Assembly: GCF_037095755.1 (NCBI RefSeq)
Contig: NZ_JBAWKJ010000003.1
Span: 744,001-808,000 of the forward strand
Origin: Sphingopyxis sp. CCNWLW2
Lineage (GTDB): Bacteria > Pseudomonadota > Alphaproteobacteria > Sphingomonadales > Sphingomonadaceae
Direction: 5' to 3'
Length of the DNA stretch: 64,000 nt
Made by a program: the position numbers and the translations under genes. The number at the start of each line of letters is the position of its first letter. Within the stretch, counting starts at the first letter, position 1. This document shows, piece by piece, positions 23,515-39,555 of this stretch. The notes beneath the pieces are model-generated. The model saw nothing but the letters and a program-made list of their open reading frames with translations. It was not told the DNA's origin and did no database searches.

Positions 23515-23918
23515 AGACGCCTCTGGTGCCGCCAGGTTGCAAGGGCGAGAAGCGGAGGCAGAAGCCAGGATGCAGCGACCTGCATCGTCTGGTACGCCGC
23601 TGGATGAACCGAAATCTCCATCGCCTTGCCGACATGGGCCATCAGCGGAAAGATCTGGAGAACGGCGGCGGGTATCGGCCAGAAGCGATGGGCCGTCAGT
23701 GCCAGCAGCAGTGTCGCGCCAGCCGCAATGAGATCGATGGCCAGATGCCCGGTATCGATCGAGCTGAAGCGCGGCGGGACAAACAGATGCAGGATCTGGT
23801 CCGCGAGCGCCATTGCGATCAAGATCAGCGCCATCGCCCGCTCGGGTCCGCCGCCCTTCCTCAGGGCATAGACGAGGACCGTCAGCAAGATCGTCACGAA
23901 GATTGCGATCCGAACCAT
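23442..23918 (-). CDS. Small polytopic membrane protein of unknown function
   Basis: The 158-residue product starts at ATG 23918 and has about five hydrophobic stretches: VRIAIFVTILLTVLVYAL, AMALILIAMALADQILHLF, LAIDLIAAGATLLLALTA, WPIPAAVLQIFPLM and VAASWLLPPLLALATW. A basic tail follows (RHQRRLRANGNDRSWLGWSRRSR). I do not recognise a family. The tail overlaps the first codons of the RadC-like gene, suggesting translational coupling. Confidence 0.6.
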   Translation of the reverse strand: MVRIAIFVTILLTVLVYALRKGGGPERAMALILIAMALADQILHLFVPPRFSSIDTGHLAIDLIAAGATLLLALTAHRFWPIPAAVLQIFPLMAHVGKAMEISVHPAAYQTMQVAASWLLPPLLALATWRHQRRLRANGNDRSWLGWSRRSRPTIAIP

Positions 23919-23956
23919 CGCGATCAAAAATCATGCAGGCGGTCCCCGGTCAATGT

Positions 23957-24866: not shown

Positions 24867-25308
24867 CGTCGAAGTTTCGTCACGTCCCTTTCAGCCAGGC
24901 TGCTTCCTGTTCCAGATGAGTTTGACATTGAAGTCCTTGTTAAATCAACTTTCCTTCGGTCCAGCCGGCGAAGACCTCCCGCAATCCCATCGTGCAGGCA
25001 ACGGGTTGCGCATCTCGCGCCCGGTCATTTCCGCCCTCGCCCGACAATTGAAGTCTTGTCGGGCAGGGGACTGTTTCAGATGATCGCCGGCCCGCAACAA
25101 CAATTCTCAAATTGAGACTAACTACCGAATAAGTTTGAAATATTTATGTCATATTGTAGCTTGGCCGCGCTCCGCATCGCTTTCGGCCAGCATCGATGCG
25201 CCACCGCGGTGACCCCGCCATTTGAGAAGGCGAGGGGATCGGCACCGGACAGGGAGCAATGCCGGAGAGGATGGTTCGAGAACGCCGCCGGCATTGCCAA
25301 GGGTCGCA
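24867..25308. other. Divergent intergenic region between the HTH-membrane gene and luxR, with two palindromes
   Basis: No gene seen in these 442 bases. A hairpin GCCCGACA-ATTGAAGTCT-TGTCGGGC spans 25039-25064. A 13-base palindrome TCTCAA-A-TTGAGA lies at 25105-25117, followed by an AT-rich stretch to about 25160. Either could be a regulator site for the quorum-sensing genes. Neither matches the classic lux-box ACCTGNNNNNNNNNNCAGGT pattern. Confidence 0.4.
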
Positions 25309-26052
25309 ATGCCAACGCTCGATGCCGCACAGCGACTCGCGGCCGAAGTCTTGAAGGTCGCGAGCGAAGACGCGTTGATCGATATTCTCGACGAGGCCTG
25401 CTCGAGGCTGGGATGTTCGTGGTACGCGCTGAGCCACCACATCGACTTCCTGGCTGCGCCCGAGAAGGGGCTGCGCATCCACAATTATCCCGAAGACTGG
25501 GCGCGATGGTTCGACGAACAACGGCTTGGCATCTGCGATCCCGTCCATCGCGCAAGCCGCCGCCGCGCCGCGGGCTTCCTCTGGCACGACATGCAGACCT
25601 TCTCGCGGCCCCGGCGCGGCGACGAAGCGATATTGTCGCGCGCGCGCCGGCACGACATTCATGACGGGCTCACGATCCCCACGCACGTCCCTGGGGACGC
25701 GCACGGATCGGTATCCTTCGCCTGGCAGAAAGGGACATATGCGACGCCCGAGGCCCTGATGTTCGCCCAGACGATCGGCGCTTTCATATTCGAGGCGGCG
25801 CGCCAGCTCTCGGGCCTCGTCCCTGCCAATGATCAGCCGCGCCTCACGGACCGGCAGATCGAATGCCTTCTCTGGGCCGCGCGCGGCAAGTCGGATTCGG
25901 TGATCGCGCAGATCATGGATCTGCAGACCGATACGGTCAGCGAACATCTGCGTAACGCCCGCGCGAAATACTCCGCGCGAAGCCGTGTCAGCCTTGCGAT
26001 CCGCGCCCTGTTCGACGGGACGATCTGCTTCGGCGACGTCGCCGGCGGTTAA
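25309..26052 (+). CDS. LuxR-family quorum-sensing regulator
   Basis: The 247-residue protein has an N-terminal autoinducer-binding domain with the conserved aromatic/acidic pocket pattern (YALSHHIDF... YPEDWARWFDEQRLGICDPVHRASRRRAAGFLWHD) and a C-terminal GerE HTH (LTDRQIECLLWAARGKSDSV-IAQIMDLQTDTVSEHLRNA). The start ATG follows AAGGGTCGCA. It is 80 bases upstream of the luxI homologue on the same strand, the standard luxR-luxI order. Confidence 0.9.
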   Translation: MPTLDAAQRLAAEVLKVASEDALIDILDEACSRLGCSWYALSHHIDFLAAPEKGLRIHNYPEDWARWFDEQRLGICDPVHRASRRRAAGFLWHDMQTFSRPRRGDEAILSRARRHDIHDGLTIPTHVPGDAHGSVSFAWQKGTYATPEALMFAQTIGAFIFEAARQLSGLVPANDQPRLTDRQIECLLWAARGKSDSVIAQIMDLQTDTVSEHLRNARAKYSARSRVSLAIRALFDGTICFGDVAGG

Positions 26053-26132
26053 AACACCCCCCTTTCTTGGTATGGCGAAAACGATTTTTCCGGTTCAATT
26101 GGTCTGTCTCTTTCAACCAAGGAGACAAGTTG

Positions 26133-26744
26133 ATGTTCCTCACGGTCAACCAGGACAACCGGGCGCGCGAACATGCCGCGCTCCGCTCGATGTTCGAAGC
26201 GCGCAAGCGCGTCTTTGTCGATCTGCTCAAATGGGACCTGCCGGTGCTGGCGGGCCGGTTCGAAGTCGATCATTTCGACGATCCTTTTGCCACTTATCTG
26301 ATCGTCACCGACGGCGGGCGAGAGCATCTCGCCTCGGCGCGACTTCTGCCGACGACGCGACCGGCGCTTCTCGACGGACTCTTCCCGCACCTCGTCTCCG
26401 GCCCGGTCCCGAACGGCGCGGCGATATGCGAGATCACCCGCTTTTGCCTTTCGCCGGGCGTGGGGGCGCGGCAGCGCCGCGCTGCGCGCGACACGCTGCT
26501 CGTCGGGCTCGTCGACCATGCACGGGCGAATGGCATCAGCACCTACACCGGCGTCGCCGAACTGTCCTGGTTCCGGCAGGTCGCGCAGTTCGGCTGGGAT
26601 TGCCGCTTGCTCGGCGAGACAGCGATCCATGATGGCCGCGCGCTGGTCGCGCTCGCGATCTCGATCGACGCGGACACGCACGCGAAGCTGGCCGGGACCG
26701 GCATCGTCGCGACCGGCACTTCCGTGCCAGCCCAGGCCGCATGA
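26133..26744 (+). CDS. Acyl-homoserine-lactone synthase, LuxI family
   Basis: The product (203 residues) has the conserved LuxI residues: the basic-aromatic start (FEARKRVFVDLLKWDLP), the acidic pair in FEVDHFDDPFATYLI, SARLLPTTRP, and EITRFCLSPG with the catalytic Glu and Arg. The ATG at 26133 is preceded by AAGGAGA. The frame is open upstream to 26067 but without a better start. It makes the AHL signal sensed by the adjacent LuxR. Acyl chain length is not readable. The phyH gene starts ten bases after its stop. Confidence 0.92.
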   Translation: MFLTVNQDNRAREHAALRSMFEARKRVFVDLLKWDLPVLAGRFEVDHFDDPFATYLIVTDGGREHLASARLLPTTRPALLDGLFPHLVSGPVPNGAAICEITRFCLSPGVGARQRRAARDTLLVGLVDHARANGISTYTGVAELSWFRQVAQFGWDCRLLGETAIHDGRALVALAISIDADTHAKLAGTGIVATGTSVPAQAA

Positions 26745-26754
26745 GGAGGGTGCG

Positions 26755-27657
26755 ATGTCGGTTCATCCTCTCCCGCGGAGCGGCGGGCGCTGTGCCGCCG
26801 CTGCGCAGCGCCTGGCCGCCGAGGGCTATGTCCGGCTTCGCGGTGCCGCCCCGGCTTCGCGGATCGCGGCGATCGCGGCGGATCTCGCACCACGTTTCGA
26901 GACGACGCCCTTTTGCTCGGGCGGCTTCTACGGAGAACGGACCAAGCGGTTCGGGCGCCTCCTGATCCGTTCGCCGCATGTCGCGGAGCTGGTGCTGCAC
27001 TCCGGAATATTGGCGCTCGCCGAAGCCGCGCTCGGTCCTTGGTGCGAGCGCATCCAGCTCAACCTCACCCAGGCCATCGAGCTCCATCCCCGCGCGCTCG
27101 CGCAATTCCCGCACCGCGATCAGAATATGTGGCAGGGGGCGCTCGGCGAGGTCGAATATCTGCTCAACGTGCTGTGGCCGCTCAGCCCCTTCACCGCGGA
27201 AAATGGCGCGACGGTCGTCTGGCCGCGAAGCCATGGCGCCGCGGCGTTGGTCGAGGAGCCGAGGGCGGCACCGGTCGTCGCCGCGGCCGACCCGGGCGAC
27301 GCGATCGTCTTTCTCGGTTCGACGCTCCACGGCGCGGGCGCCAACCGCAGTGACGGCGTCCGGCAGGGGATCATCATCAGCTACTGCCTCGGATGGCTCA
27401 AGCCCTACGAGAATCCGTGGCTGGCCTATCCGCCCGAGATTGCGCGCGACTTCCCGCCCGAGCTCGCGGCGCTAGCCGGCTATGCGCAGCACCGGCCCAA
27501 TCTCGGCAATTTCGAGGGGCAATGCCCGTCGGTGCTGTTCGCCGGCTATCCCGATGAGCCGCTCGCCGCGACCGATGCGCTGCGCCCCGATCAGGAAGCG
27601 CGGCTTGCCCGGTATATCGCGACGCAGCGGCAGAGTGGCGGGAGGTTTGCGGAATGA
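26755..27657 (+). CDS. Phytanoyl-CoA dioxygenase (PhyH) family Fe(II)/2-oxoglutarate oxygenase
   Basis: This 300-residue oxygenase has the iron ligands HxD in FPHRDQNMW (about residues 121-123) and the distal His in STLHGAGANRSDG (about 192), with an Arg soon after that would bind 2-oxoglutarate. The start follows GAGGAGGGTGCG. As I recall, a phyH gene directly after luxI is a recurrent arrangement in Sphingomonadaceae genomes, so it may act with the signal system. Acting on the lasso peptide is a competing idea because of the downstream genes. The GntR gene overlaps its stop by four bases. Confidence 0.85.
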   Translation: MSVHPLPRSGGRCAAAAQRLAAEGYVRLRGAAPASRIAAIAADLAPRFETTPFCSGGFYGERTKRFGRLLIRSPHVAELVLHSGILALAEAALGPWCERIQLNLTQAIELHPRALAQFPHRDQNMWQGALGEVEYLLNVLWPLSPFTAENGATVVWPRSHGAAALVEEPRAAPVVAAADPGDAIVFLGSTLHGAGANRSDGVRQGIIISYCLGWLKPYENPWLAYPPEIARDFPPELAALAGYAQHRPNLGNFEGQCPSVLFAGYPDEPLAATDALRPDQEARLARYIATQRQSGGRFAE

Positions 27658-28274
27658 ACGCGGGATCGACAATGGAGCGGGTCTATCTCGACCTGAAGGC
27701 GAGGATCGTCGGCGGCGCCTATCCGCCCGGCACGCGTCTCGATCCCTTCCACCTCGCAAAGCGGCTGGCGGCAAGTCCGACACCCGTCCGCGAGGCACTC
27801 CATCGGCTGTCGGGCGAGCGCATCGTCGATAGCTGGCATCAGGAAGGCTTCCGTCAGCCGATCTTCGCCGAGGCCGATCTTTGCGATCTCTACCATTGGG
27901 CCGGCGCGCTCGTCCGGTTCGCGCTGAGCGATCCGCCGCGTCCTCCCGGACCGGGCACCCTGCTCCCGATGATGGAGGTTGAAGATTATCAGGCGCGAGT
28001 CGCGCGGTTGTTTCGGGCAATCGCGCTGCTCAACGGCAATCGCGAACTTCGCTTCGCCATCGCCAACATGATCGAACGCAGCGAGTTTTTCCGCGCAGCC
28101 GAGGCGCGCACCGACCCGAGCGCCGAGCATGTCCTCGCGTCGATGGAGGCGGCCTTCCTGAAGGCCCATTGGGCTGAACTTCGCAGCAAAAGCGCGCTTT
28201 TCCACCGGCGCAGGGTCGCGCGCGCGGGGCGGGTCGTCGCCGAAATCCGACCGCGGTCGCAAACAATCGAATGA
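27654..28274 (+). CDS. GntR-family transcriptional regulator
   Basis: The 206-residue product has an N-terminal winged helix of GntR type (ERVYLDLKARIVGGAYPPGTRLD then LAKRLAASPTPVREALHRLSGERIV) and a helical C-terminal domain of the FCD/VanR kind (about residues 80-190). The start ATG overlaps the phyH stop (ATGA), so luxI-phyH-gntR are probably one transcript. It ends 96 bases before the lasso precursor gene and is the best-placed candidate regulator of that promoter. Effector unknown. Confidence 0.85.
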   Translation: MNAGSTMERVYLDLKARIVGGAYPPGTRLDPFHLAKRLAASPTPVREALHRLSGERIVDSWHQEGFRQPIFAEADLCDLYHWAGALVRFALSDPPRPPGPGTLLPMMEVEDYQARVARLFRAIALLNGNRELRFAIANMIERSEFFRAAEARTDPSAEHVLASMEAAFLKAHWAELRSKSALFHRRRVARAGRVVAEIRPRSQTIE

Positions 28275-28276
28275 TA

Positions 28277-28293
28277 TTTTCCAGACAGGAAAA
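28277..28293. promoter_or_regulatory. Inverted repeat TTTTCC-N5-GGAAAA before the lasso precursor gene
   Basis: Perfect 6-bp arms around AGACA, directly after the gntR stop and 78 bases before the precursor ATG. It is AT-rich relative to its surroundings and has no T-run that would make it a terminator. Position suits an operator for the precursor promoter, perhaps bound by the GntR or LuxR protein. Confidence 0.4.
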
Positions 28294-28370
28294 GCACATA
28301 AACTCTATTTTTCCCAACGGCGTAGCTTCGACGGCGCCGCAATCCCGCGGTATCAGCAAAGGAGGGTCCC

Positions 28371-28508
28371 ATGGACCGTCACACCATCGCCGAAGACGGC
28401 ATCGAAGAACTGGGCGTCGCCAGCGTCGAGACGCGCGGCACCGAATTCCCGGTTCCGGAATCGATCGGGCGCAAGCTCGAACCCGACGCCGGCATTTCGG
28501 TCGACTGA
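28371..28508 (+). CDS. Lasso peptide precursor (45 residues, predicted 22-residue leader and 23-residue core)
   Basis: ATG 28371 follows a strong AAGGAGGG site. The leader ends ELGVASVETR, with Thr at the penultimate position as required by lasso leader peptidases. The predicted core starts with Gly, GTEFPVPE being an 8-residue macrolactam ring closed between Gly1 and Glu8, and the tail is SIGRKLEPDAGISVD. An acidic C-terminal residue and a 15-residue tail resemble astexins and sphingopyxins, which mostly have 8- or 9-membered rings. The calculated mass of the cyclised core is about 2394.2 Da (my hand calculation). The gene is directly followed by the maturation genes. Confidence 0.88.
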   Translation: MDRHTIAEDGIEELGVASVETRGTEFPVPESIGRKLEPDAGISVD

Positions 28509-28515
28509 CAGCCGG

Positions 28516-28545
28516 AGGGCGCGGTGCGATCGCGTGCCGCGCCCT
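28516..28545 (+). promoter_or_regulatory. Stem-loop between lasso precursor and maturation genes
   Basis: AGGGCGCGG (28516-28524) pairs perfectly with CCGCGCCCT (28537-28545) around a 12-base loop. It lies eight bases after the precursor stop and covers the ribosome site GGAGGG and a GTG at 28524 that could start the B gene. Such a structure can protect the precursor message or reduce read-through, giving more precursor than enzyme. Confidence 0.55.
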
Positions 28546-28556
28546 TACGCCCCGAT

Positions 28557-29198
28557 ATGCGCTATCATCTTCCCGACCATATCAGCTTCGGCCTGTTCGG
28601 CGAGCGCGCGGTCCTTCTGGATGCCGTCGCCGATCGCTATTATCTGCTTGCCGGACCTGACGCCGATTTTCTCGCGGGTGTCGCGAACCCGGTGCCTGCG
28701 GACCGTCTTGCGGCGCGCGGATTGCTCGCGCGCGGCGCAGGGCAGGCGATTGTCCCCGTCGAAGCACGCGAACGAACGGCAAGCGCTCTCGAGGCTCGGG
28801 GGCGTGTGGCGCGGATGAGCGCTTGCGAGGTTGGAGGCCATCGGCTGGAGGCATCGCTCTCGCTTCGCTTTCGCGGTCTTTCTCCGACCATCGAGCGGTG
28901 GCGCCGGCTGCGCGCCCGACGAAGCGATCCCGCCGGGCGTAGCAGCCAGGCCGGCGGCGTCGGCGATCTCGCGCGCGGCTATGCGAAGGCCCGGCTCTAT
29001 GTTCCCGCGCGGCGGCGCTGCGTTCCCGACAGCCTTGCATTGATGCGTTGCCTCTGGCGGCGCGGGCATGATGCCGAGCTCTATTTCGGGGTCAGGCTCG
29101 CGCCCTTTGCCGCGCATTGCTGGGTGCAAAAGGGCGATCTGCTCCTGTCCGACCCGCTCGATATCGTCCGCGAATTTACGCCGGTGTTTCGCCTGTGA
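28557..29198 (+). CDS. Lasso peptide maturation protein B (fused B1 recognition domain and B2 leader peptidase)
   Basis: Residues about 1-75 form a PqqD-like leader-recognition domain (MRYHLPDHISFGLFGERAVLLDAVADRYYLLAG in two blocks). The C-terminal part is the transglutaminase-like B2 protease with Cys in RRRCVPDSLALMRCLW (about 155), His in FAAHCWVQKGD (about 187) and Asp in LLLSDPLDIV (about 198). It removes the leader after the Thr-Arg pair. I use ATG 28557 because B proteins normally begin with MRY-type sequence. GTG 28524, which has the better ribosome site, would add 11 residues. The stop overlaps the next gene (GTGA). Confidence 0.88.
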   Translation: MRYHLPDHISFGLFGERAVLLDAVADRYYLLAGPDADFLAGVANPVPADRLAARGLLARGAGQAIVPVEARERTASALEARGRVARMSACEVGGHRLEASLSLRFRGLSPTIERWRRLRARRSDPAGRSSQAGGVGDLARGYAKARLYVPARRRCVPDSLALMRCLWRRGHDAELYFGVRLAPFAAHCWVQKGDLLLSDPLDIVREFTPVFRL

Positions 29199-30910
29199 GC
29201 CTGCGGCTTGCCCTTCTCGGCGGGGACAGCCGCGAGCGCGAGCTGCCGCGCGGCGTGGCGCATCTCGCCGCCGTCGGCTCGGCTGCGCTGCTCGGCGACG
29301 CGGCGACGCCGATCGGCGTTGCCGGGAGCGTCGTGCTTGCCGGCTGGGCCTTTCGCAGCGCGGGGTTCGGGACATGCACGGAGCTTGATGGAGGGGAGGC
29401 GGACCGGATCGTTGCCACCGGCGGGCGCTGGGCGCTCGAAAATCTCTGGGGCAATTATATCCTCTTCTGGGCCGACCGGGAGGGGCGCGCCCATATCCTG
29501 CGCGCGCCGGTCACCGGCCCGGCGATCTATCATATTGCCGCGGGGGAGGCGGGTTCGGGCGCGGCTCTTGCTTTCACCGACCTCGCGCTGGCGCGCGCGC
29601 TCGGTTTCGCGCTCGACCGGCCCGATGCGGCCGCGATCGATGCCGAGATGCGGATCCCGCTGCTGCGCGGCCATGCGACCGGCCTTCTCGGCGTCCGCGA
29701 AATCCTGCCCGGCGAGATCGTCCGGCTCGGCCGTGCGGCGGCGCTTCCGCAGAGCTGGTCGCCGTGGGACCATATGAAGGACGCGCCGCGCCGCGTCGAA
29801 CCCGACGCGCTGCGCAGCAAGGTGATGCGTGTCGTGTCGGCGTGGAGCATGCGCTTCGGGCGGATCCAGCTCGAGCTTTCGGGCGGGCTCGACAGTTCGA
29901 TCGTCGCGGCCTGCCTCGCGGGGCGGCACGGCGACTGGCGCGCGATCACCATGGCGACCTCCGATCCCGATGGCGACGAGCGTGTCTATGCGCGTGCCGC
30001 CGCCGAACGGGCCGGAGCGCCGCTCTTCGAGCTCCTGCTATCGGGGGATCCGGTCGATCCGACCGCGCCGATCGCCCGTCTGCGTGCGCGTCCGGGCGGG
30101 TTCGGTCTGCTCGCGCCCGTCGACGCGCGTCTCGGCGCCGCGGCGGCGGACTATGGTGCCGAGGCCATATTCACCGGGGCGGGGGGCGACAATATCTTCG
30201 GCTATCTGACCTCGGCGGCGCCGATCGTCGACGCCCTTCGCTTCGCAGGGCCGCGCGCCGCCTGGAATGCCGCGGGCGATCTCGCGCGCGTGATGAACGA
30301 CAATGTCTGGAAGGCGCTGCGGCTCGCGGCGCGCAAGACCGTGGTGCGGGGGCGTTTCTGGCCCTCCGACAACAGCCTGTTGTCGCAGCGCTTCGCGGGT
30401 CGCGTACCCGAGCATCCCTGGCTCGTTCGCGCGCGTGCGGCATGGCCGGGGCAGCGCACCTATGCGCTCAAACTGCTGCCGATCCAGCCGTTTCTCGATG
30501 GATATGACCGGGCGCTCGCGCTGCCGATGATAGCGCCCTTGCTCGCGCAGCCGCTCGTCGAATACGGGCTCGGGGTGCCGAGCTGGCAATGGGGCGAAGG
30601 CGGCCAGGACCGGGCGCTTGCGCGCCGTGCCTTCGCGAGCAATGTGCCCGAGGCGGTGCTCGCGCGGCGGATCAAGGGACGGATTGAATCGCTCTTCTAC
30701 CCAAGCTTCGACCGGCACCGCAGCAATCTGCGCTCTTTTCTTCTCGATGGCTGGCTTGCGGGGGAGCGGCTGATCGATTGCGATGCGGTGCGCGCGCTCG
30801 TCGATGGCGAACGGCGTGCCGATGGCGTCGCCGCCATCCGTCTCCTGCACCTCGCCGACATGGAGCGCTGGGTCCGATCGCTGGCGTCACCGCCGCCCTC
30901 GGCGAGCTGA
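29195..30910 (+). CDS. Lasso peptide macrolactam synthetase C (asparagine-synthase-like)
   Basis: The enzyme (571 residues) starts at GTG 29195, overlapping the B gene stop by four bases. It has a degenerate N-terminal glutaminase-like domain without the N-terminal Cys and a synthetase domain with the pyrophosphate loop LELSGGLDSSIVAACLAG at about residues 226-243 and a second ATP site (TGAGGDNIFGYLTS). It adenylates the Glu8 side chain and closes the bond to the Gly1 amine. The whole ABC set is compact and typical of proteobacterial lasso loci. There is no ABC exporter gene. Confidence 0.88.
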   Translation: MSLRLALLGGDSRERELPRGVAHLAAVGSAALLGDAATPIGVAGSVVLAGWAFRSAGFGTCTELDGGEADRIVATGGRWALENLWGNYILFWADREGRAHILRAPVTGPAIYHIAAGEAGSGAALAFTDLALARALGFALDRPDAAAIDAEMRIPLLRGHATGLLGVREILPGEIVRLGRAAALPQSWSPWDHMKDAPRRVEPDALRSKVMRVVSAWSMRFGRIQLELSGGLDSSIVAACLAGRHGDWRAITMATSDPDGDERVYARAAAERAGAPLFELLLSGDPVDPTAPIARLRARPGGFGLLAPVDARLGAAAADYGAEAIFTGAGGDNIFGYLTSAAPIVDALRFAGPRAAWNAAGDLARVMNDNVWKALRLAARKTVVRGRFWPSDNSLLSQRFAGRVPEHPWLVRARAAWPGQRTYALKLLPIQPFLDGYDRALALPMIAPLLAQPLVEYGLGVPSWQWGEGGQDRALARRAFASNVPEAVLARRIKGRIESLFYPSFDRHRSNLRSFLLDGWLAGERLIDCDAVRALVDGERRADGVAAIRLLHLADMERWVRSLASPPPSAS

Positions 30911-30967
30911 CTGGTCGCGCAAACTCGTGCCGGACGCGCACCGGGGAGGCTGCGTCCGGCACGAGCG

Positions 30968-32956
30968 CTACGGCGCGGGAACGGGCAAGGACTCTCCCGC
31001 GCCGAGCTGGCGCCAGCGCAGATATTGTTCGCGCTTGGCGGGGTCCGGGTCTTCCTCGTCCTTGAGCCAGAAACGATACCAGTCGAGATTGCGCTCATAG
31101 ACCGCGCGCTTGTGGACGGGCTGTGTCTTGATGTGCGGCTCGTCGGCGAAGAGGATCATCTCGGCGGGCTTGCCCGCGCGCTTGAGCCGCGTGTGAAACT
31201 CGATGACATAGCGCGCTTCGGACTCGGGTAGCTGCATGAGGAGCGGCGTGTCGATGCTTTCGGCGTCGGCGGCGGGCGCGAGCATTGTCCATCGCGCGCG
31301 GTCGGTGTCGGGATCGCCGAGCTGCCAATAGCGCGCGAACATCTCGGAGAAACCGCGACCGGGGAGGGCGTTTGCCCAATAATAGATGTCGCTGATCTGC
31401 CCCGAGGAGCTGGTCGCGGCGGCGAAGCGCGGCGATTTGCGGATCGCCCAGAGCGCGACCTCGGATCCGAAGCTGAGGCCGCCGATGCCGACGCGCGCGC
31501 GATCGACGATCCCCTTCGCGGCGAGATCGTCGATCGCCCTTTCGATATCGGCGAGCGCCAGCGCATAGCCCGCCTCGATCCTGCCGCTCTTCGGCGTGCG
31601 CGTGCGATCCATGCAGAGGACCGCGATGCCCTGTTCGACGAGCGGCAGCATCGGAATCTCGTCGCCGACGCCGCCTTTCAGAAAGCCCGCGCAGTGATAA
31701 TATTGGATGACGAGCGGCAAGGGGCCTTTGGTTCCGGCGGGACGAAGCAAGATGCCGGTCACATCGCCATCCCATTGCATCTCTTCGGCCGAAGCCGCGA
31801 TGCGCCGCCGGAAACCGGCATTGGGGTCGGCGAGCAGGTGCGCCTTGCCGTCGGCATAATCGATCCGGACGAGGCGCGGCGGACGCAGCGGACCGCTCTC
31901 GGCGCAGACGAGCGCCTGGCCTCCCACCGCGCAGCGGGGTGCCCGGTAGGCGGCGCGCTGCGCGCCATCGGTGGTCGCGATGCGGCGGGCTTGCCGCGCG
32001 CCGACACGCCAGGACCAGAGGATCTCGCGCGCGCTGCCTTCGCGCTCGAAGAGCAGGATCGTGTCGGCGCCGGGCAGCCAGGCGAGCGCCGCGAGGCGCG
32101 AAGACCGGCAGACACGCGCTTCGCAGGCAAGCACGCGTCCGTCGGGGCGCATGACGGTGACGCCTGTCATATCGCCGTCGGCGCGGATCTCGGCGAGGCT
32201 TCCATCGCGCGTGGCGACGCGCTTTCCCTGTTCGGCGCGGGGGGCCGGAAAACCGGAATCGGGATGGGCATCGGGTGCGATTTTGCCGTCGATGCCGATG
32301 GTTCGCTGTTGACGCGGCGCGTCCCACAAGAGCCGCTCGCGTTCGAACCATTCGGTCGGGAGCTGCTGCATCACGCGCCGGCCATCCGCGATCGCGCCGC
32401 CCGCGACGGGCTGCATGATGTCGAGATGCCGGTCGGCGACGACGCCCTCGGCATAGGCGCGCCGCTCGGCCCCGGCGATCGCGGCGCGTGTCGCCCCGAC
32501 CGTAAATCGCAGTGCCTTGCCGTCGGCGGACAGCGTGAAGTCGAGGATGTCGGCGTCATCGACCACTTCGCGGAGCGCCACGCCGCCCTCGCGCCAGTGC
32601 CAGATGCCGACCGCGCCATCGACGAGCGCGCGGAAGCGCAGCCCGCGTGAGTCCATATCCCATATCGGCACCTGCTCGGCGAGCCCGCCCGAACCCTCAT
32701 ATTGGGCCGCGCCGCCGCTGCCGGCGTGGACAGGGGCATTGCCCTTCAGGTCAGCGATATACCAGTCGAGCATGGTGCGATTGCCGGCCACCGACGCGCG
32801 CGCGACCCGGTAGGCGACGCGTTTTCCGTCGGGCGAGAGGGTGGGCGCACCGATCTCGGCGACCTCGACGAGATCGTGTGCCGCGATCGGCACACGCGCC
32901 CGGTCGGCGGGGGAGGCGGGCGCGGTGGCGGCGAGCAGGGTCGCCAGCATCACCAT
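30968..32956 (-). CDS. Lasso peptide isopeptidase (AtxE-like, S9 prolyl-oligopeptidase fold)
   Basis: This 662-residue protein has an N-terminal signal-like stretch (MLATLLAATAPASPA), a beta-propeller (about residues 40-390) and a C-terminal alpha/beta-hydrolase domain with the nucleophile in GIGGLSFGSEVALWA (Ser about 495) and the His in DEPHIKTQP (about 608). In known isopeptidase-type lasso clusters this enzyme opens the macrolactam bond and linearises the peptide. It is convergent with the ABC genes, as in astexin loci, and its ATG (32956) overlaps the receptor stop. An ATG at 32950 is a valid alternative start. Confidence 0.85.
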   Translation of the reverse strand: MVMLATLLAATAPASPADRARVPIAAHDLVEVAEIGAPTLSPDGKRVAYRVARASVAGNRTMLDWYIADLKGNAPVHAGSGGAAQYEGSGGLAEQVPIWDMDSRGLRFRALVDGAVGIWHWREGGVALREVVDDADILDFTLSADGKALRFTVGATRAAIAGAERRAYAEGVVADRHLDIMQPVAGGAIADGRRVMQQLPTEWFERERLLWDAPRQQRTIGIDGKIAPDAHPDSGFPAPRAEQGKRVATRDGSLAEIRADGDMTGVTVMRPDGRVLACEARVCRSSRLAALAWLPGADTILLFEREGSAREILWSWRVGARQARRIATTDGAQRAAYRAPRCAVGGQALVCAESGPLRPPRLVRIDYADGKAHLLADPNAGFRRRIAASAEEMQWDGDVTGILLRPAGTKGPLPLVIQYYHCAGFLKGGVGDEIPMLPLVEQGIAVLCMDRTRTPKSGRIEAGYALALADIERAIDDLAAKGIVDRARVGIGGLSFGSEVALWAIRKSPRFAAATSSSGQISDIYYWANALPGRGFSEMFARYWQLGDPDTDRARWTMLAPAADAESIDTPLLMQLPESEARYVIEFHTRLKRAGKPAEMILFADEPHIKTQPVHKRAVYERNLDWYRFWLKDEEDPDPAKREQYLRWRQLGAGESLPVPAP

Positions 32957-35877
32957 GCGATCACCGCCTGCAGCGCGATCATGCGCCCGATCGCGCTCGC
33001 CTGTTCGGGGTCGTAGCCGAACGCCGAATTGCTCGTGCGGAACTGCGCGTAGGGCGGCGCCGTGTCGAACAGATTGTTGACGCTGAGCGCGAGGCGGAAC
33101 GAACGATCGGCGGGATCGCCGATGCGCGCGCCGAGCTGGAGATCGAAGGTCGTCCAGCTCTTGACCCGCTCGGCGGGGGTGATGGTGAGATTGCGATAGG
33201 CGGCGACATGATGGACGCCGATGCCGCCATCAAATTGTCCGAGGGTGAAGCCCGCACGGCCGCGGAGGCGCAGCTTGACCGGATTGCCGAGCGTTCCGAG
33301 GACATCGACCGCGGGCGCCGCCGCAGTGATCCGGTTGTCGATCGTGAACAGCCGGGTGCCGCCGAGCGACAGCGCGACGCTGCCTGCGCCGACGGGGCGC
33401 GTATAGCCGATGTCGAAATCGAGCCCCTGCACCTTGGCTTTCGAAAGGTTGAAGGTGCGCCCGTCGACGATCGCCCCGACCTCGCCGGGCGTCACGCCGA
33501 GCGTGTTCGCGAAGCTCGGATCGGCGAAATAGGCGGCGACGGTCGCGGGGTCGGGATTGTCGTCGACGATCGAGGCATAAATGTCGCGGCGCGCGAGGAA
33601 GTTGAAAAGGTCGAACGAAGCGGTGGCGATGCGGTCGCGGTAGCCAATGTCGAACCAGGTCAGGCCGAGCCTCGCGCCGGGGATCGCGGCCGGTTCGAGA
33701 TCGAGGCCCGCCGTCCAGGTCGTCGCCTTTTCGGGCCCGAGGTCCGGGCGGAAACCGAACAGCCCGAGCACCACCGTCCGCCCGGACGGCGCCTCGGGAT
33801 CGGGGAGGACGATCGTCTCGTAAAAGGCATTGGCGGTGCCGACGAGCTCGTCGAAGAAGGGGGCGCGGAACGAGCGCCCGTAGGAGGCGCGCAAGGTCAG
33901 GCCTTTGACCGGAACCCATTGCACCCCGAATTTGGGATTGGCGGTGTCGCCGACGTCCGAATAATGTTCATAGCGTCCCGCCGCCGAGAGGGTGAGCACA
34001 CCGGGGAAGACGGCGCCCGCGTCGAAGACCGGCACGACGAGTTCGCCGTAAAGCGCACGCACGGTGCGATGGTCGGGTAGTCCCGCTATGCCCGAGGTCG
34101 TTGGCGTGTCGGCGCTGCGGTCGATCGTCTGGGTGTAACGGAGCTGGTCGCGGCGATATTCGGCGCCGATCGCCATTTTCGCGTCGCCCGCCGGGAGCGC
34201 GAACAGGGGGCCGTCGGCACGGAAGGCCGCGGTCCGGTTCTGATAGCGCACGCGGCGCGTCAGGCTGCCCCGCAAAGAGTCGATGAGCGCGGGGTCGTTG
34301 ACCGCGCCGTCGCCGAACAGCTTGATCGCCGCCGCGGGCGTGGTTGCCGCGGCGGCGCGGGTGAGCTTGAGGCGGTGGACGATATTGACCCCGTCATTGC
34401 GCTCGCGCTGGAGGCCATAGCCGCCCGACAGCTCGAGCGACCAGGCGCCGAGGCTCGCGCGGGCGCCGAACATGGTGTTGATCGCGCGCGACGAACCGCG
34501 CACCCCCTCAGGGCCGAAATCGGCGGTCGGGTCGTAAGCGACGCTGATATTCTGGCCGGTCCCGATCGGGTCGACATACCAGGGATTGGTCGGACGCACC
34601 GTGAGCTGGGTGATGCCGAAAACCCGCTGCCGCGCTTCGAAATGCCGCTCGGCATAAAGCGCGCGGGCGAAGAGCGTGACATGATCGCCGATGTCCTGTT
34701 CGGCGGCGGCGTAGAGGCTCGTGCTCCGCTGACGCGGCAGGATGTCGATATGGCGCCGCGTGTCGCCGCGGTTGAAGTCGCTGCTCGGAACGAGATCGGC
34801 AGCCGTGAGCGCGGTGCCGTCCTGGCCGCGCGGGATCAGGAAGCGCTGGCCGTTCGCCGCGACGATCGTCCCCGGATTGGCGAAGTTCGAGCGGAGGTCG
34901 GGGCCACCGAAAGGCCGGAGATCCTCGGTCGCGAAGCGCCGTTCGGTCGACGGCAGATTGTCGCGGCGATAATATTCGCCCGCGACGACGAGATGGCCGC
35001 TCGACCACCGCGTGCCGAATATCTGGCTGACCTGATATTCGCCGAAGTCGCCATCGGCGGTGCCGGCGCGCAGCCGCGTCTCGGCGCCCTCGAAGCGATT
35101 GCGGAAGCGGATGTTGACGACCCCGGCAATCGCGTCGGAGCCATAGATGGCCGATGCGCCGTCGGTGAGGATCTCGATACGGTCGATCGCTGCCGACGGC
35201 ACGAGCGAGAGATCGGTGAAGGCGCCCGAGCCGCCGCCGAGAGCGGGGCGGGCACCGTCGAACAGCGTCAGCGTCGAACCGCTGCCGAGCCCGCGGAGGT
35301 TGATGCCTGTCCCATAGGTGAGATTGGTGTTCGCATAGCCGCGCGCGCTTGTCCCGACATTCGCTTCGGCGGGGCCACCCGAGAAATTCTGCGGGATCGT
35401 CTGGAGAAACTCGGCGATCGTCGCGCGGCCGCTGCGGTCGAGCGCGTCGCGGTCGATGTGCTGGACCGGCGAACCCACCGGACCGGCGCCGCGGATGCGC
35501 GTGCCGGTCACCACAATGGCTTCATCCGCTGTCCCGGTTGCGCCGGATGCGGCTTCTCCGGTTTCCGGCCGGATGATCAGCGCGCCATCGACGGTCTCGG
35601 TCTTGAGCCCGGTGCCCGCGAGCAGCCGCGCGAGCGCCGCGTCGGCCGACAGGCGGCCGCGGACCGCACGGCTTCTTTTGCCGGCGACGAGACGCGACGC
35701 CGCGACGACTTCGCGCCCTGAAACTTCAGAATAGCGCCGCAACGCGTCGCCGAGCGGCTGCGCTGCGATGTCATAGTCTCGTTGGTCGGCTTGTGCTTGC
35801 GCCTCTGCCGCGGGCGCATGAAGCACGGTTGCCGCCGTACCCGCAAGCAAGGCCGCGATGATCATATTCTTTGTCAT
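32950..35877 (-). CDS. FecA-type TonB-dependent receptor/transducer for the lasso peptide
   Basis: The receptor (975 residues) starts at ATG 35877 after GGGAGGGTAG, with a signal peptide ending AAEAQA. It then carries an STN signalling domain (YDIAAQPLGDALRRYSEVSG... LSADAALARLLAGTGL), a linker (AIVVTGTRIRGAGPVGSPVQ), a plug (ILTDGASAIYGSDAIAGVVNIRFR) and the barrel. The STN domain means that ligand binding can signal through FecR to FecI. Next to the isopeptidase the obvious ligand is the lasso peptide itself, and re-import for opening is the model proposed for astexin-type loci. Confidence 0.9.
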   Translation of the reverse strand: MTKNMIIAALLAGTAATVLHAPAAEAQAQADQRDYDIAAQPLGDALRRYSEVSGREVVAASRLVAGKRSRAVRGRLSADAALARLLAGTGLKTETVDGALIIRPETGEAASGATGTADEAIVVTGTRIRGAGPVGSPVQHIDRDALDRSGRATIAEFLQTIPQNFSGGPAEANVGTSARGYANTNLTYGTGINLRGLGSGSTLTLFDGARPALGGGSGAFTDLSLVPSAAIDRIEILTDGASAIYGSDAIAGVVNIRFRNRFEGAETRLRAGTADGDFGEYQVSQIFGTRWSSGHLVVAGEYYRRDNLPSTERRFATEDLRPFGGPDLRSNFANPGTIVAANGQRFLIPRGQDGTALTAADLVPSSDFNRGDTRRHIDILPRQRSTSLYAAAEQDIGDHVTLFARALYAERHFEARQRVFGITQLTVRPTNPWYVDPIGTGQNISVAYDPTADFGPEGVRGSSRAINTMFGARASLGAWSLELSGGYGLQRERNDGVNIVHRLKLTRAAAATTPAAAIKLFGDGAVNDPALIDSLRGSLTRRVRYQNRTAAFRADGPLFALPAGDAKMAIGAEYRRDQLRYTQTIDRSADTPTTSGIAGLPDHRTVRALYGELVVPVFDAGAVFPGVLTLSAAGRYEHYSDVGDTANPKFGVQWVPVKGLTLRASYGRSFRAPFFDELVGTANAFYETIVLPDPEAPSGRTVVLGLFGFRPDLGPEKATTWTAGLDLEPAAIPGARLGLTWFDIGYRDRIATASFDLFNFLARRDIYASIVDDNPDPATVAAYFADPSFANTLGVTPGEVGAIVDGRTFNLSKAKVQGLDFDIGYTRPVGAGSVALSLGGTRLFTIDNRITAAAPAVDVLGTLGNPVKLRLRGRAGFTLGQFDGGIGVHHVAAYRNLTITPAERVKSWTTFDLQLGARIGDPADRSFRLALSVNNLFDTAPPYAQFRTSNSAFGYDPEQASAIGRMIALQAVIAW

Positions 35878-35958
35878 TCTACCCTCCCGAGCGGCCTCTG
35901 GTGGCCGTCTGGGAGCGCAAAACACCGGCGTGGCAGACCCCACCCCCCGGGGGCCGGG

Positions 35959-36867
35959 CTATTTTTTACTCAGGACGATGTCCCCGGCTTGGTTCTCGGC
36001 CTCGAGATCGAGCGCCGCTGCAAGCGTTCGCGCGAGCCGCCGCCTGTCCGACACGTCGAACCGTCCCGTGACCGGAAGCGCCGCGAGCGCGGGGTCGGCG
36101 AGGGCGATACGCTGGCCGCTCGCCGCGTTGGCGCGGTCGAGCACGGCACCGAGCGGCAGCTTGTCCACGGCGATCGTGGCCGTCGGCACCGGGTTCGCCA
36201 TCGCGGGGGTGCGGCGCGGACCCGACGCCGGGACTTCGGCAACCTCGCCCGGGGCCAGCCGGAGCGCCTCGCCCGCAGGGCCGGCGCGGACCTCGACCGC
36301 TCCCTTGATGAGCTTGATGCGCGGGACGGCGTCGCGGGCGTCGACCTCGAAGACCGTGCCGATCGCGCGCGTTTCCGAGCGTCCTGCGACGACGATGAAG
36401 GGCCGCGCCGCGTCGTGCGCGACGTCGAAGCGCGCCCGCCCGCCGTGGAGGATGACACGGCGTTCGCTATCCGACAGCTGCGGGTTGACCCAGGCGCCGT
36501 CCATCAGCGTGACGGTCGTCCCGTCGGCGAGCCGGAGCTGGCCGGGGAGCATCGGGCCTGCGGCGATCTGCGGCTGGTCGCCCCGGCCCTGGAGATACCA
36601 GGCGAAGCCGAGTGCAAGTGCGATCGCGGCAACCGTCGCCACGGCCCAGCGCAGGCTGCCGGGCGCACGGGCGTCGCTGCGTGCCTTCGCCTCGATGCGC
36701 TGGCGCGACGTGGTGCCGGAATAATCCCAGTCGTCGACGGCGCGGGCATAGGCGTCGGCGTTGCCGGGCTGTGCGCGCCAGCTTTCGAACCGGCCTCTTT
36801 CGGCGTCGCTTGGCGTTCCGCGCATCAGGGCGGCCCAGTCGGCCGCCTCGCGCTGCTGCCGCGTCAC
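35959..36867 (-). CDS. FecR-family anti-sigma factor
   Basis: The 302-residue protein has the cytoplasmic FecR N-terminal domain (AADWAALMRGTPSDAERGRFESWRAQPGNADAYARA), one membrane helix (about residues 74-92, AVATVAAIALALGFAWYL) and the periplasmic FecR domain (LADGTTVTLMDGAWVNPQLS... LHGGRARFDVAHDAARPFIV) ending in an STN-like segment (VDKLPLGAVLDRANAASGQRI). It should hold the sigma factor inactive and receive the signal from the receptor. Its ATG overlaps the sigma stop by four bases. Confidence 0.9.
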   Translation of the reverse strand: MTRQQREAADWAALMRGTPSDAERGRFESWRAQPGNADAYARAVDDWDYSGTTSRQRIEAKARSDARAPGSLRWAVATVAAIALALGFAWYLQGRGDQPQIAAGPMLPGQLRLADGTTVTLMDGAWVNPQLSDSERRVILHGGRARFDVAHDAARPFIVVAGRSETRAIGTVFEVDARDAVPRIKLIKGAVEVRAGPAGEALRLAPGEVAEVPASGPRRTPAMANPVPTATIAVDKLPLGAVLDRANAASGQRIALADPALAALPVTGRFDVSDRRRLARTLAAALDLEAENQAGDIVLSKK

Positions 36868-37448
36868 GGCTGCGTGTCTCGCGCCTTGCGGATCGCGACG
36901 AGGGCTTTGGCGATATGCTTTTCCACGCGCTTGGGACTCATCTGTTTGATCTTCGCAATCTCGGCATAGCTCAGATCGTCGAACCTGTGCATCAGGAATA
37001 CATCCCTTGTGGCGGGGCTGAGCCGCGCGATCGCGTCCTCGACGCGGCGGATCATGTCGCGCGCCTCGAGCGCGGCGTGCGGGTCGGGGCCGGCGATATC
37101 CTGCTCCTCATAGCTGTGATGCGCTGTGTGGAGGCGGCGGACGCCGGACCGCGCGCGGTTCTTGAGAATGCTCCGCGCCGCCGCGGCGACATAGGCGGCG
37201 GGAGCATCGAGCAGGCCGACGCGGTTGCCGGTCGCCGAAAAGACGCGGCGGAAGGTTTCCTGGACGAGATCGGCGACCTCCTGCGGCGGCACGCTGCGCC
37301 GGAAGATGCCCGCGACCTGGTGATGCTGCGCCGCATACAGCGCCTCGGCGCGCGCGGTGGCGCCGAAGCCCGCCCAGTCGTCGGGCGGCAGCGGATCGGC
37401 GGCATCGAGGCCGCGCCGTCCGTCCTTCTCGCTGTCGTCATAGTCCAT
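36864..37448 (-). CDS. ECF sigma factor, FecI family
   Basis: The sigma-2 region reads ALYAAQHHQVAGIFRRSVPPQEVADLVQETFRRVFSA, and sigma-4 reads LSPATRDVFLMHRFDDLSYAEIAKIKQMSPKRVEKHIAKAL. I take ATG 37448 (MDYDDSEKDGRR, 194 residues). In-frame ATGs at about 37551 and 37590 would add an arginine-rich tail. With FecR and the STN receptor it forms a cell-surface signalling system likely to drive receptor and isopeptidase expression when lasso peptide is sensed. Confidence 0.88.
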   Translation of the reverse strand: MDYDDSEKDGRRGLDAADPLPPDDWAGFGATARAEALYAAQHHQVAGIFRRSVPPQEVADLVQETFRRVFSATGNRVGLLDAPAAYVAAAARSILKNRARSGVRRLHTAHHSYEEQDIAGPDPHAALEARDMIRRVEDAIARLSPATRDVFLMHRFDDLSYAEIAKIKQMSPKRVEKHIAKALVAIRKARDTQP

Positions 37449-38379
37449 CGCGTCCGCCTTCGAGTAGGCAGCGACGGCGCCGAAAAGCCGGGCGTTGAGA
37501 ACAGGTACGAGAAACCCGCGCCGCCGCCTTTGGCCCGAGGGCTTGGACATGCGCAGACGGCCACCCGGCGGGATGGCATTCAGGGACATTGACTCTCGAA
37601 CGGAGTTCTCACGCTCCGGCATCCGGCGCTTCGCTGCCCGATGCCGGACCAGCATAACCGGCTGTGCCGTAAGGGCAAGAGTCTCCCAGGAGACCTGTCC
37701 CAATTGGACAGGATTCGGGGGTGGCCGCGGCGCGGAGGGGCGGAGGGATGGCGGAGGATGGGGGGAAGGGAGACGGAGGGGCGGCTCTTGGTTTCGACCG
37801 GGTTCGACTGCGGCGAGCAGGGGATTGGATTTACAAAGTAGCTGCTGATGTGCGCGGCCCGAATGGAGCGCGCACTGGCGGCGGCAGGCGCCGCCAGAGG
37901 TCGCGCGCCTGCACGGTTGGCCGCGCTGCGCTCTTGGGCTCGCTGATCTTGGCGCGGCGGCGGCTAAGCACAGCTGCGCGCGCACGCCGCCGCGCCTGCG
38001 GCTCGCCAAGGGCGCGAGTTGGTTGGCCCTTCGGGCCGGGATCGAGGTCGATTGCATCGAAACGTCGGACCGGGGCCGTTCGGGGCGGTCTGGCGACCGG
38101 GCGGATGCGCGGGCGCGTCGTCTGAGTTCCAGCTGAGGACGCCGCGCGGGGCGCGGCGGCGCTTTGGTGAGCCGGCACCTCGGACAGCGGCGCGGGCGGC
38201 GCACGGCCTGTGGGACCGCCCGGCGCCCGCGCAAGCCCTTCTTCGTCGAGCTCCTCCGCTTCGCTGCGGCCCTTCGGGTGCGCGCCCGCCTTGCTGGGCG
38301 GTCCCGTGACCGTGGATTCGCCGCCCGCCCCGCTGTCCGGGGCCGGCCGCGGCGGATTTTGGTCTGGAGGAGACGCCCC
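37449..38379. other. 931-base GC-rich intergenic region before ardC
   Basis: Open frames here on both strands are compositional shadows (Arg/Ala/Pro-rich). From about 37850 the DNA is extremely GC-rich. The 17-base string CGGCCCTTCGGGTGCGC at 38267-38283 recurs at 42745-42761 before the DUF736 gene, about 80-115 bases from the start codon in both cases. The left part (37449-37850) holds the presumed fecI promoter and is purine-rich around 37720-37790. No gene seen. Confidence 0.45.
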
Positions 38380-39555
38380 GTGAGTGCATTCCCGCAAGCC
38401 TTGGCCCCGGCCGCACCGTCCGAAAACCGCGCGCCCGCACCCGCACCCGCACCCGCGCGCGGCGCGCGGAAGCGGCGCGGTGAGGCTGTATCGCGCAAAG
38501 ACGACCATGGCGCGGCGCCGCGTGTGTCGCTCTATGACGAAGTCACCACGCAGATCATCGCCGAACTCGAAGAGGGGCGCTTTCCTTGGACGCGCCCTTG
38601 GGACGCCGCTGCCTTTGCGCCCGGCCTTCCGCGCAACGCCGTAACGCGCCGCAGCTATTCGGGCATCAATATCCTGATACTCTGGTCCGAGGCGGTGCGG
38701 CGCGGGTTCGGCGCCCAAGGCTGGCTCACCTTCCGTCAGGCTAGGCAAGCGGGCGGACAGGTCCGCAAGGGCGAGAAGGGCACGACGATCTTCTACGCCG
38801 CGCGCTTCACCCCGAAGGGCGGCGAAGGCGGCGCCGAGGTTGCCAGCGCCCCAGCACCCGAAGGGCTCGGCGGCGCGGGGGAGGGCGATCGCTCGATTCC
38901 GTTCCTCAAACGCTTCACCGTGTTCAACGTCGCGCAGGTCGATGGTTTGCCCGAACGCTGCACTGCGCCCGACCCCATTCTCTTGCCCCGCGAAACGATC
39001 CCGGTCGCCGAGGCGCTGCTTGCGGCGAGCGGCGCCGATATCCGTATCGGCGGCAATGAGGCTTATTATTCGCCATCGGGCGATTTCGTCGCACTGCCGC
39101 CGCAACAGGCGTTCTTTGAGCAGATCGACTATTGTCGCTCCGCGCTCCACGAACTCGGCCACTGGACCGGTCATGGCTCGCGGCTGGACCGCGACCAGAC
39201 GGGCGGTTTCGGTAGCGCCGCCTATGGCCGCGAGGAACTTTGCGCCGAACTCGCGAGCGCCTTCCTGTGCGCCGCGCTCGGTATCAAGCCGACCGTGCGC
39301 CATGCCGACTATCTCGGCGCATGGCTCGCGATCATGCGCGCCGATACGCGCGCGATCTTCAAGGCGGCGAGCCTTGCAAGCAAGGCCGCCGACTATCTGC
39401 TCGCCTTTGCGCCCGCATCTGCGGAGCACGGCACGGGAGGCACGCCCGGGTCGGCGGAACGCGATACGGGAGGCGCGCCCGCGTCAGCGGGGGGCGACAT
39501 GGAGAGAGCGCCCGAAAGCGCGCGCGGCGAGGATGCGGCGGGAGCGGGCCAATGA
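38380..39555 (+). CDS. ArdC-like antirestriction protein (ssDNA-binding N-terminal domain plus zincin)
   Basis: From GTG 38380 (ribosome site GGAGGAG) the 391-residue product has a Pro/Ala-rich tail, an ArdC N-terminal domain (LYDEVTTQIIAELEEGRFPWTRPWD... RRSYSGINILILWSEAVRRG, FRQARQAGGQVRKGEKGTTI) and a zincin-like domain with HELGH (ALHELGHWTGHGSRLDRD) near residue 258. The C-terminus holds short SAE/SAG-type low-complexity repeats. ArdC proteins protect incoming conjugative DNA. The stop overlaps the DUF2958 gene start (ATGA). Confidence 0.88.
   Translation: MSAFPQALAPAAPSENRAPAPAPAPARGARKRRGEAVSRKDDHGAAPRVSLYDEVTTQIIAELEEGRFPWTRPWDAAAFAPGLPRNAVTRRSYSGINILILWSEAVRRGFGAQGWLTFRQARQAGGQVRKGEKGTTIFYAARFTPKGGEGGAEVASAPAPEGLGGAGEGDRSIPFLKRFTVFNVAQVDGLPERCTAPDPILLPRETIPVAEALLAASGADIRIGGNEAYYSPSGDFVALPPQQAFFEQIDYCRSALHELGHWTGHGSRLDRDQTGGFGSAAYGREELCAELASAFLCAALGIKPTVRHADYLGAWLAIMRADTRAIFKAASLASKAADYLLAFAPASAEHGTGGTPGSAERDTGGAPASAGGDMERAPESARGEDAAGAGQ

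Follow-up and report, generated by a model that had tools for sequence, protein, structure and literature searches.

A Sphingopyxis lasso peptide locus that joins a quorum-sensing head to an apparently exchangeable cassette of peptide, enzymes and receptor

Introduction

Why should a bacterium that makes a lasso peptide also carry an enzyme that would open it and a receptor that may bring it back into the cell? The accessible part of a review of such clusters (PMC9266682) terms the role of the isopeptidase-type lasso peptides enigmatic and describes a nearly constant architecture, in which a GntR gene precedes the precursor gene A and the isopeptidase gene is followed by a TonB receptor and a sigma/anti-sigma pair. 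Here we analyse a locus of this kind in 64,000 nucleotides of Sphingopyxis sp. CCNWLW2 (the window; contig NZ_JBAWKJ010000003.1, positions 744,001 to 808,000). We consider it rather probable that in this locus an isopeptidase-type lasso system carries a quorum-sensing head, that a cassette has been exchanged inside a regulatory frame and that the whole would yield a density-gated peptide read by its own receptor.

Results

A quorum-sensing head precedes the lasso genes

The sequence-only reading of the window had placed at 28371 to 37448 a 45-residue precursor behind a strong ribosome site, with Thr at -2, Gly1 and Glu8, followed by genes for B, C, an isopeptidase, a FecA-type receptor, FecR and FecI. 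All of these were recovered where they had been placed, the precursor by its sequence (28371-28508) and a PF24178 score over cut-off and the others by Pfam or NCBIfam models (Table 1). The left end had been set too short, as the conserved array of the relatives begins at LuxR, near 25309 in the window. The lasso system therefore stands, whereas the LuxR-LuxI-PhyH-GntR head, a second copy in the genome and the exchange of the cassette had been missed. The four head genes lie immediately 5' of the lasso genes on the same strand, with a 4-base overlap of phyH and gntR and a 96-base gap from gntR to A.

By gene content the locus is a lasso cluster of the ribosomally synthesized and post-translationally modified peptide class (precursor with Thr at -2, Gly1 and an acid at 7-9; B protease and C cyclase) and an AtxE2-type cluster (isopeptidase; GntR upstream; TonB receptor and sigma/anti-sigma pair downstream). 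By domains it holds a LuxR/LuxI system (acyl-homoserine lactone (AHL) synthase; AHL-binding and GerE DNA-binding domains) and by genes a FecA/FecR/FecI surface-signalling system (STN receptor with adjoining FecR and extracytoplasmic function (ECF) sigma factor). As judged from these predicted functions, the genes for AHL synthesis and reception, GntR, lasso production, opening and reception, and FecR/FecI are shown to form one conserved array; from it we infer that AHL regulates the system, that the barrel recognises the peptide and that FecI relays the signal.

luxI accompanies most isopeptidase genes of the genus

In a sample of 80 genomes of the genus we counted as isopeptidases the NF033523 matches over the cut-off of 400 and as linked those with luxI within 15 kb; the genus counts refer to the matches listed. 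There were 88 such isopeptidase genes and 126 luxI genes, and 59 of the 88 were linked, against 1.53 expected from random placement with rounded genome sizes. Linkage went with score: 56 of 60 isopeptidases at 612 bits or less were linked (53 of them at 4.2-4.5 kb) versus 3 of 28 above. Below the cut-off, 32 of 43 S9 peptidase matches (148-172 bits) also had luxI nearby, and 89 of the 126 luxI genes lay near an isopeptidase or a match of this kind; such matches are not proof of a lasso isopeptidase, because below its cut-off the model is unspecific and also gave matches in 11 of 14 control genomes. Conversely, the 69 luxI genes counted as unlinked on over-cut-off isopeptidases are an overstatement, since 13 of the 20 that were fetched adjoin lasso or receptor genes.

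The linkage extends to the order. Among the matches listed for 396 genomes, which include 12 isopeptidase genomes of the genus, luxI (co-occurrence counted by hand) was present in 64 of 70 genomes with an isopeptidase versus 75 of 326 without (p 1.4e-27). Outside the genus all 72 over-cut-off isopeptidase genes were entered, with LuxI taken mostly from genomes having one, and at least 42 lay within 15 kb of a luxI gene; several gene orders and genera are represented. LuxR, LuxI, GntR, B, C, the isopeptidase (E), receptor and FecI were found in all 20 of these 42 linked loci that were fetched, PhyH in 17 and FecR in 16. Even among 20 stretches picked mainly for apparent non-linkage, three proved luxI-linked in another gene order (L132, L133 and L137, luxI lying just beyond the stretch end in L132).

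An ordinary isopeptidase lasso cluster could nevertheless lie merely beside luxR-luxI-phyH, the two co-travelling in mobile regions with no regulatory tie. The ArdC (38164-39552) and RadC (22507-23931) genes that flank the locus, as in mobile regions, fit this explanation, as do the other 17 of the 20 stretches, which held no LuxR, LuxI or PhyH although 10 of them had GntR, B, C, E, receptor, FecR and FecI (some of the remaining 7 end at contig edges). We judge it unlikely all the same. Linked loci differ in gene order and come from several genera, luxI, phyH and gntR follow one another closely and lead into A, and five of the fetched luxI loci, with LuxR-LuxI-PhyH and no GntR (L093, L094, L095, L108 and L109), had none of the lasso genes B, C and E within about 6 kb. 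A weak receptor match was seen in L093 and a weak FecI match in L109. Of the other fetched luxI loci first counted as unlinked, L098 had LuxR, LuxI and a short PhyH match, L099 had LuxR and LuxI only, and L090 and L104 had lasso genes with no GntR match. Hence PhyH is mostly a companion of LuxI, and GntR one of the lasso genes B, C and E.

Peptide, enzymes and barrel change together

The 60 lower-scoring isopeptidases of the genus gave 59 stretches (a second, overlapping stretch of G105 was dropped; L054 and L061 overlap). In these, tblastn found E in 59, GntR, B and C in 58 each, the receptor in 57, LuxI in 56, PhyH in 55, LuxR and FecR in 54 each and FecI in 52, some stretches ending at contig edges. 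The cassettes fall into three types: I, that of the window, II, often with two precursors, and III. When type was mapped onto trees of 50-56 rows (L053, L061 and L083 excluded; some tables also lack L038, in which a single open frame covers PhyH and GntR), it changed 2 times, the minimum, for E, B, C and the receptor, but 10 times for each of LuxI, LuxR, FecR and FecI, 11 times for GntR and 13 times for PhyH. The starred branches of the GntR tree force at least 4 changes, and the approximately unbiased test rejected a single type I clade for GntR (6.8e-7), FecI (1.4e-35) and the STN segment of the receptor (5.1e-5).

The split runs through the receptor gene. Type changed 11 times for residues 1-130, which cover the signal peptide and STN, and 2 times for each later segment. 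Over 44 non-redundant loci, identity in receptor windows 21-160 tracked FecR and GntR (rank correlation 0.60-0.70) over E (0.02-0.28), whereas windows 141-240 tracked E (0.85-0.89) and not FecR (0.04-0.12); beyond 240 the values were 0.48-0.83 for E and 0.09-0.36 for FecR. STN thus co-varies with FecR, and the correlations flip near residue 140. Because the stretch EAIVVTG between STN and plug, presumably the TonB box, is kept in all types shown, the exchange boundary can be placed only within about 125-160 of the 997-residue open reading frame (ORF).

DNA comparisons of swapped loci at orthologous places give a similar picture in three of the four pairs examined (L051/L082, L056/L073 and L072/L088), where identity mostly exceeds 80% to either side of the cassette and mostly falls to 40-70% within it. 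In L051/L082 the left side is 86% identical from the flank through the A promoter, running into A with falling identity, and the right side 90% from the N-terminal part of the receptor past FecI and on into the flank; between the two sides a single match remains (126 bases, 73%). Inside the cassette L056/L073 has one short match and L072/L088 two (67-77%). High identity is lost in the three pairs between the element GCCGCAATTCCGCGGCA and the A ribosome site, and in the clearest pairs the breakpoints lie just 5' of that site and between receptor STN and plug. In the genus loci A, B, C, the isopeptidase and the receptor plug and barrel thus behave as an exchangeable cassette, and the frame (LuxR-LuxI-PhyH, with or without GntR; receptor STN, FecR and FecI) has a history separate from it.

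The GntR of the window shares 74-83% identity with its counterparts in seven type II loci (L067, L068, L071, L075, L084, L086 and L087), 46-60% with those tabulated for the other type I loci and 63% with that of L038 (tblastn), whereas the LuxR, LuxI and PhyH of the window are closest to those of L046-L048. A promoter motif downstream of gntR is shared, among 46 distinct sequences, by the window and exactly these seven loci; this may be simple linkage, since the motif adjoins gntR.

These histories bear on what the locus does. PhyH might be a lasso tailoring enzyme, the product then being hydroxylated (+15.99 Da), and CanE, a 2-oxoglutarate enzyme that hydroxylates the canucin precursor, is a precedent in the accessible part of the review (PMC9266682). 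We disfavour this as improbable, because PhyH tracks the frame and not the cassette on its tree (13 changes), sits with LuxR-LuxI but no lasso genes in 5 of the 20 fetched luxI loci (with the short match of L098 as a sixth), occurs in 0 of the 17 LuxI-less stretches and is missing from 3 of the 20 linked order loci, all of which retain LuxI.

The co-inheritance of product and receptor suits any ligand-receptor pair, including siderophore-like scavenging, in which the lasso would carry metal or other cargo and be re-imported and opened for release, AHL only timing a public good. We hold this to be somewhat unlikely: no obvious metal-binding motif was seen by eye in the listed cores, though the likeness of isopeptidase clusters to siderophore regulation, drawn in the accessible part of the same review (PMC9266682), speaks for it. 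A narrow-spectrum antibacterial peptide, with receptor exchange driven by selection against barrel-using peptides or phages, seems very doubtful. Outer-membrane receptors often diversify under peptide or phage pressure, which counts in its favour, but here the barrel is exchanged with B, C and the isopeptidase and not alone. Moreover, the known isopeptidase lasso peptides other than astexin-1 have no antimicrobial activity, according to the accessible part of the review (PMC9266682).

The precursor and its predicted ring

Precursor A, with AAAGGAGGG right ahead of its ATG, consists of the leader MDRHTIAEDGIEELGVASVETR and the core GTEFPVPESIGRKLEPDAGISVD, for which we predict a Gly1-Glu8 ring. 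The predicted mass of the product (one water lost) was recomputed as 2394.207 Da, in agreement with the 2394.2 Da given earlier. A large protein collection held 15 homologues besides A itself (P0001); among P0001-P0012 the exact core recurs in 6 and differs by one change in 3, and the leaders vary. A chance ORF is ruled out, to judge from these homologues with their steady core and varying leaders. A six-frame search found a relative in 15 of 99 genomes, all 15 of the same genus, and searches against plasmids and PDB sequences gave no match. The suggestion that A is too short for ordinary gene calling did not survive, as homologues have been called publicly (P0004 as 'hypothetical protein'; P0015 in NCBI, nr) and a Pfam model exists.

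That model, PF24178, is that of the subterisin family, and the window precursor scores over the family cut-off. The NCBIfam model lasso_benenodin (NF033522) gave 27.9 bits, under its cut-off of 33, which leaves A outside the benenodin family by that measure. The window core differs from what we take to be the subterisin core, to which the first 17 core residues of L127, a luxI-linked locus outside the genus, are presumably equal.

Precursors were picked with a pattern that fixes Thr(-2) and Gly1 and leaves position 8 free. It picked precursors in 79 of the 83 loci with B (none in L103, L104, L117 and L126) and gave 71 core strings, one of which (L045) is an out-of-frame artefact and was excluded. 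An acid stands at position 8 in 67 of the 70 distinct cores, at 9 only in 2 and at both 7 and 9 in 1, and the predicted 8-residue ring of a complete isopeptidase-type system is thereby upheld. An 8-membered ring with two prolines had been thought uncommon. In the window-type cassette it is the rule, 10 of 11 distinct cores (artefact excluded) having at least two prolines among their first 8 residues; two ring prolines are less common in type II cores.

Features of the locus and its surroundings

Table 1. Genes and non-coding elements of the lasso locus, in window coordinates
Feature	Position	Strand	Evidence or remark
LuxR-type AHL receptor	25309..26052	+	PF03472 90.5 bits, PF00196 42.3 bits for 25222-26049
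C-run ... TATGG element, candidate lux box, luxR-luxI gap	26056..26075	+	conserved in 37/40 distinct genus luxR-luxI intergenic sequences (not in L031-L033)
LuxI-type acyl-homoserine-lactone synthase	26133..26744	+	PF00765 75.4 bits; ribosome site AGGAG 26120-26124
PhyH-family Fe(II)/2-oxoglutarate oxygenase	26755..27657	+	PF05721 72.7 bits
GntR-family regulator	27654..28274	+	PF00392 49.9 bits
Presumed A promoter region	28275..28350	+	3' end is the conserved GCCGCAATNCCGCGG (28336-28350)
Lasso precursor A	28371..28508	+	45 aa; PF24178 37.6 bits, cut-off 27
A-B intergenic hairpin, 14-bp stem	28515..28546	+	-29 kcal/mol
Lasso B protein	28557..29198	+	C-terminal cysteine-protease domain; PF13471 69.7 bits, NF033537 71.9 bits
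Lasso cyclase C, asparagine-synthetase homologue	29195..30910	+	PF00733 97.7 bits (ORF from 29117)
Lasso isopeptidase, AtxE2 family	30968..32956	-	NF033523 544.1 bits, cut-off 400
TonB-dependent transducer	32950..35877	-	STN PF07660, plug PF07715, barrel PF00593
FecR anti-sigma factor	35959..36867	-	PF04773 55.4 bits
FecI-type ECF sigma factor	36864..37448	-	PF08281 56.4 bits; TIGR02937 69.8 bits

The likely luxR start is the ATG at 25309, in an ORF open from 25222. The N-terminal part of B matched no Pfam or NCBIfam model and, from its length and position, is probably the leader-recognition element; the end of B overlaps the start of C via GTGA. The isopeptidase matches the solved AtxE2 structure (chain 5txc) at 182.9 bits. 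In the receptor, the start of which was read as 35877, Pfam places STN at residues 80-126 and the plug at 158-275.

Several non-coding elements accompany these genes. The candidate lux box is the sole perfect match to its pattern in the window, where 0.13 matches are expected at up to 3 mismatches. Between the A promoter and the ribosome site, at the very edge of the exchange, lies the inverted element GCCGCAATNCCGCGG. Its pattern alone is nothing unusual, since 4.16 matches are expected in the window at up to 2 mismatches and 1 is present; the element stands out by its conservation only, being found in 45 of the 46 distinct sequences of the genus. An operator, a recombination site and an RNA element are all conceivable roles. 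The A-B hairpin has a z-score of -2.62, and 4 of 200 shuffles were equally good.

The genome of the window carries a second complete lasso locus with its own LuxR, LuxI, PhyH and GntR (L003, also L049). Its precursor (L003:6907-7044; contig C1 near 2338906) has the predicted core GEEFPVPEIGGHDLKLGGGISAD, and a gene without a Pfam match lies between luxR and luxI on the opposite strand (L003:3510-4586, minus). Elsewhere, two lasso/luxI near-copies with identical GntR lie more than 100 kb apart in opposite orientation on contig C12 of G014 (L079/L080), and tandem isopeptidase genes, about 5.2 kb from start to start, share one luxI head in L054/L061 (G035, contig C118) and in L058 (G105). No PhyH match was found in L070 (G104) or L089 (G016). 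L070 has a LuxI-like match of 42% identity, with no PF00765 match in G104 and no LuxR found, and L089 only a short LuxR match; both are possibly decaying quorum-sensing heads. The gene order LuxR-LuxI-(PhyH)-GntR-FecI-FecR-receptor was seen in L103, L091, L092, L100-L102, L105 and L107. In stretches that reach far enough (L103), an S9 peptidase far under the NF033523 cut-off comes next, then C and B on the other strand; C is also present in L105. Peptidases like that of L103 are perhaps a divergent isopeptidase subfamily.

An ArdC-type zincin/antirestriction gene and then a DUF2958 protein gene (region to 39968) adjoin the locus, which suggests that it lies in a mobile region. On the other side, the minus-strand ORF at 22507-23931 encodes a RadC JAB domain and then a MarR/HTH_27-like winged helix.

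Discussion

Both halves of the locus have known counterparts. With the AtxE2/astexin, sphingopyxin I and benenodin clusters the window shares the GntR-A order, the isopeptidase, the receptor and the sigma pair, but the accessible part of the review describes neither LuxR/LuxI nor PhyH with this architecture, nor any cassette exchange, and has no occurrence of 'quorum' (PMC9266682). Partly accessible papers by Gan and co-workers describe luxR-luxI-phyH in Sphingomonadaceae (PMC3704786, PMC4288048, PMC5012321); their novR-novI-phyH synteny has the same three genes as the window head (PMC5012321, PMC3704786), and in one of the copies of N. subterraneum phyH is immediately followed by a GntR gene (PMC5012321). 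The word 'lasso' is absent from the texts of all three. A further counterpart is an antiSMASH 'hserlactone/lassopeptide' region of Qipengyuania pacifica, which resembles one in Citromicrobium sp. JL477 and brings together B2, an asparagine synthetase, an AHL synthase, an AtxE2-family isopeptidase and a TonB receptor (PMC9318849). Co-location of lasso and AHL-synthase genes had thus been seen in single genomes, although the accessible part of that report presents a single predicted cluster and describes no generality or module exchange. The accessible parts of PMC13352647, PMC12670498, PMC11024222, PMC6696727 and PMC5067487 hold nothing on luxI-lasso linkage, and we found no account of its generality or of cassette exchange in the open-licence PMC literature, as far as this is accessible. 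As first described, the cluster is an ordinary new member of the lasso clusters; it is set apart by the quorum-sensing head and the exchangeable peptide-enzyme-receptor cassette.

We propose that LuxR with AHL would drive transcription of luxI-phyH-gntR and that GntR would control the A promoter. B would cut off the leader and C join Gly1 to Glu8. The lasso peptide would leave the cell and be recognised by the barrel of its own cassette, STN would pass this recognition via FecR to FecI, and the isopeptidase would open the imported lasso, ending the signal or recycling its residues. If these steps hold, the peptide would act as a private ligand, gated by cell density, for the receptor inherited with it, and not as an antibiotic.

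Several observations weigh against this proposal. Many isopeptidase genes have no luxI nearby (29 of 88 in the genus and at most 30 of 72 in the order, among the matches listed), and hence an isopeptidase system has no need of luxI. The stretches examined around nine related isopeptidases of other lineages (L005-L013; Luteimonas, Marinicaulis, Acidobacteria and others) showed no LuxI, but of the nine just L007 and L009 showed B and C. Swapped pairs also retain some similarity inside the cassette, in short matches of 66-77% and a 37-base one of 97%. The fourth pair, L042/L076, also differs in GntR (64% identical), and the left boundary varies because GntR too has been replaced there. The shared history of GntR and the A promoter may be hitch-hiking, since the two adjoin. 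The trees are quick ones, some rows having long branches, and the STN/barrel split is weak in loci from outside the genus (16 loci: for STN, FecI 0.41-0.49 and E 0.18-0.24; for later segments, E 0.26-0.55 and FecI 0.03-0.32). Finally, import and opening could equally serve scavenging.

The density-gated private signal nevertheless remains our preferred reading, and it may reach beyond this locus. More tentatively, the isopeptidase lassos of Sphingomonadales could be interchangeable private signals, 'pherotype cartridges' in a two-key arrangement. AHL would set when the peptide is made; the co-inherited barrel, naturally spliced to the host STN-FecR-FecI between STN and plug, would read which peptide it is; and the isopeptidase would be the off-switch. 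The linkage to luxI of the majority of the isopeptidase genes found here in Sphingomonadales, with exchange as one unit that leaves the signalling domain behind, makes the enigmatic role of these peptides directly testable, as the regulators are named and the mass of the peptide is predicted. The natural junction in the receptor, in turn, suggests which part of it binds the ligand and which part signals.

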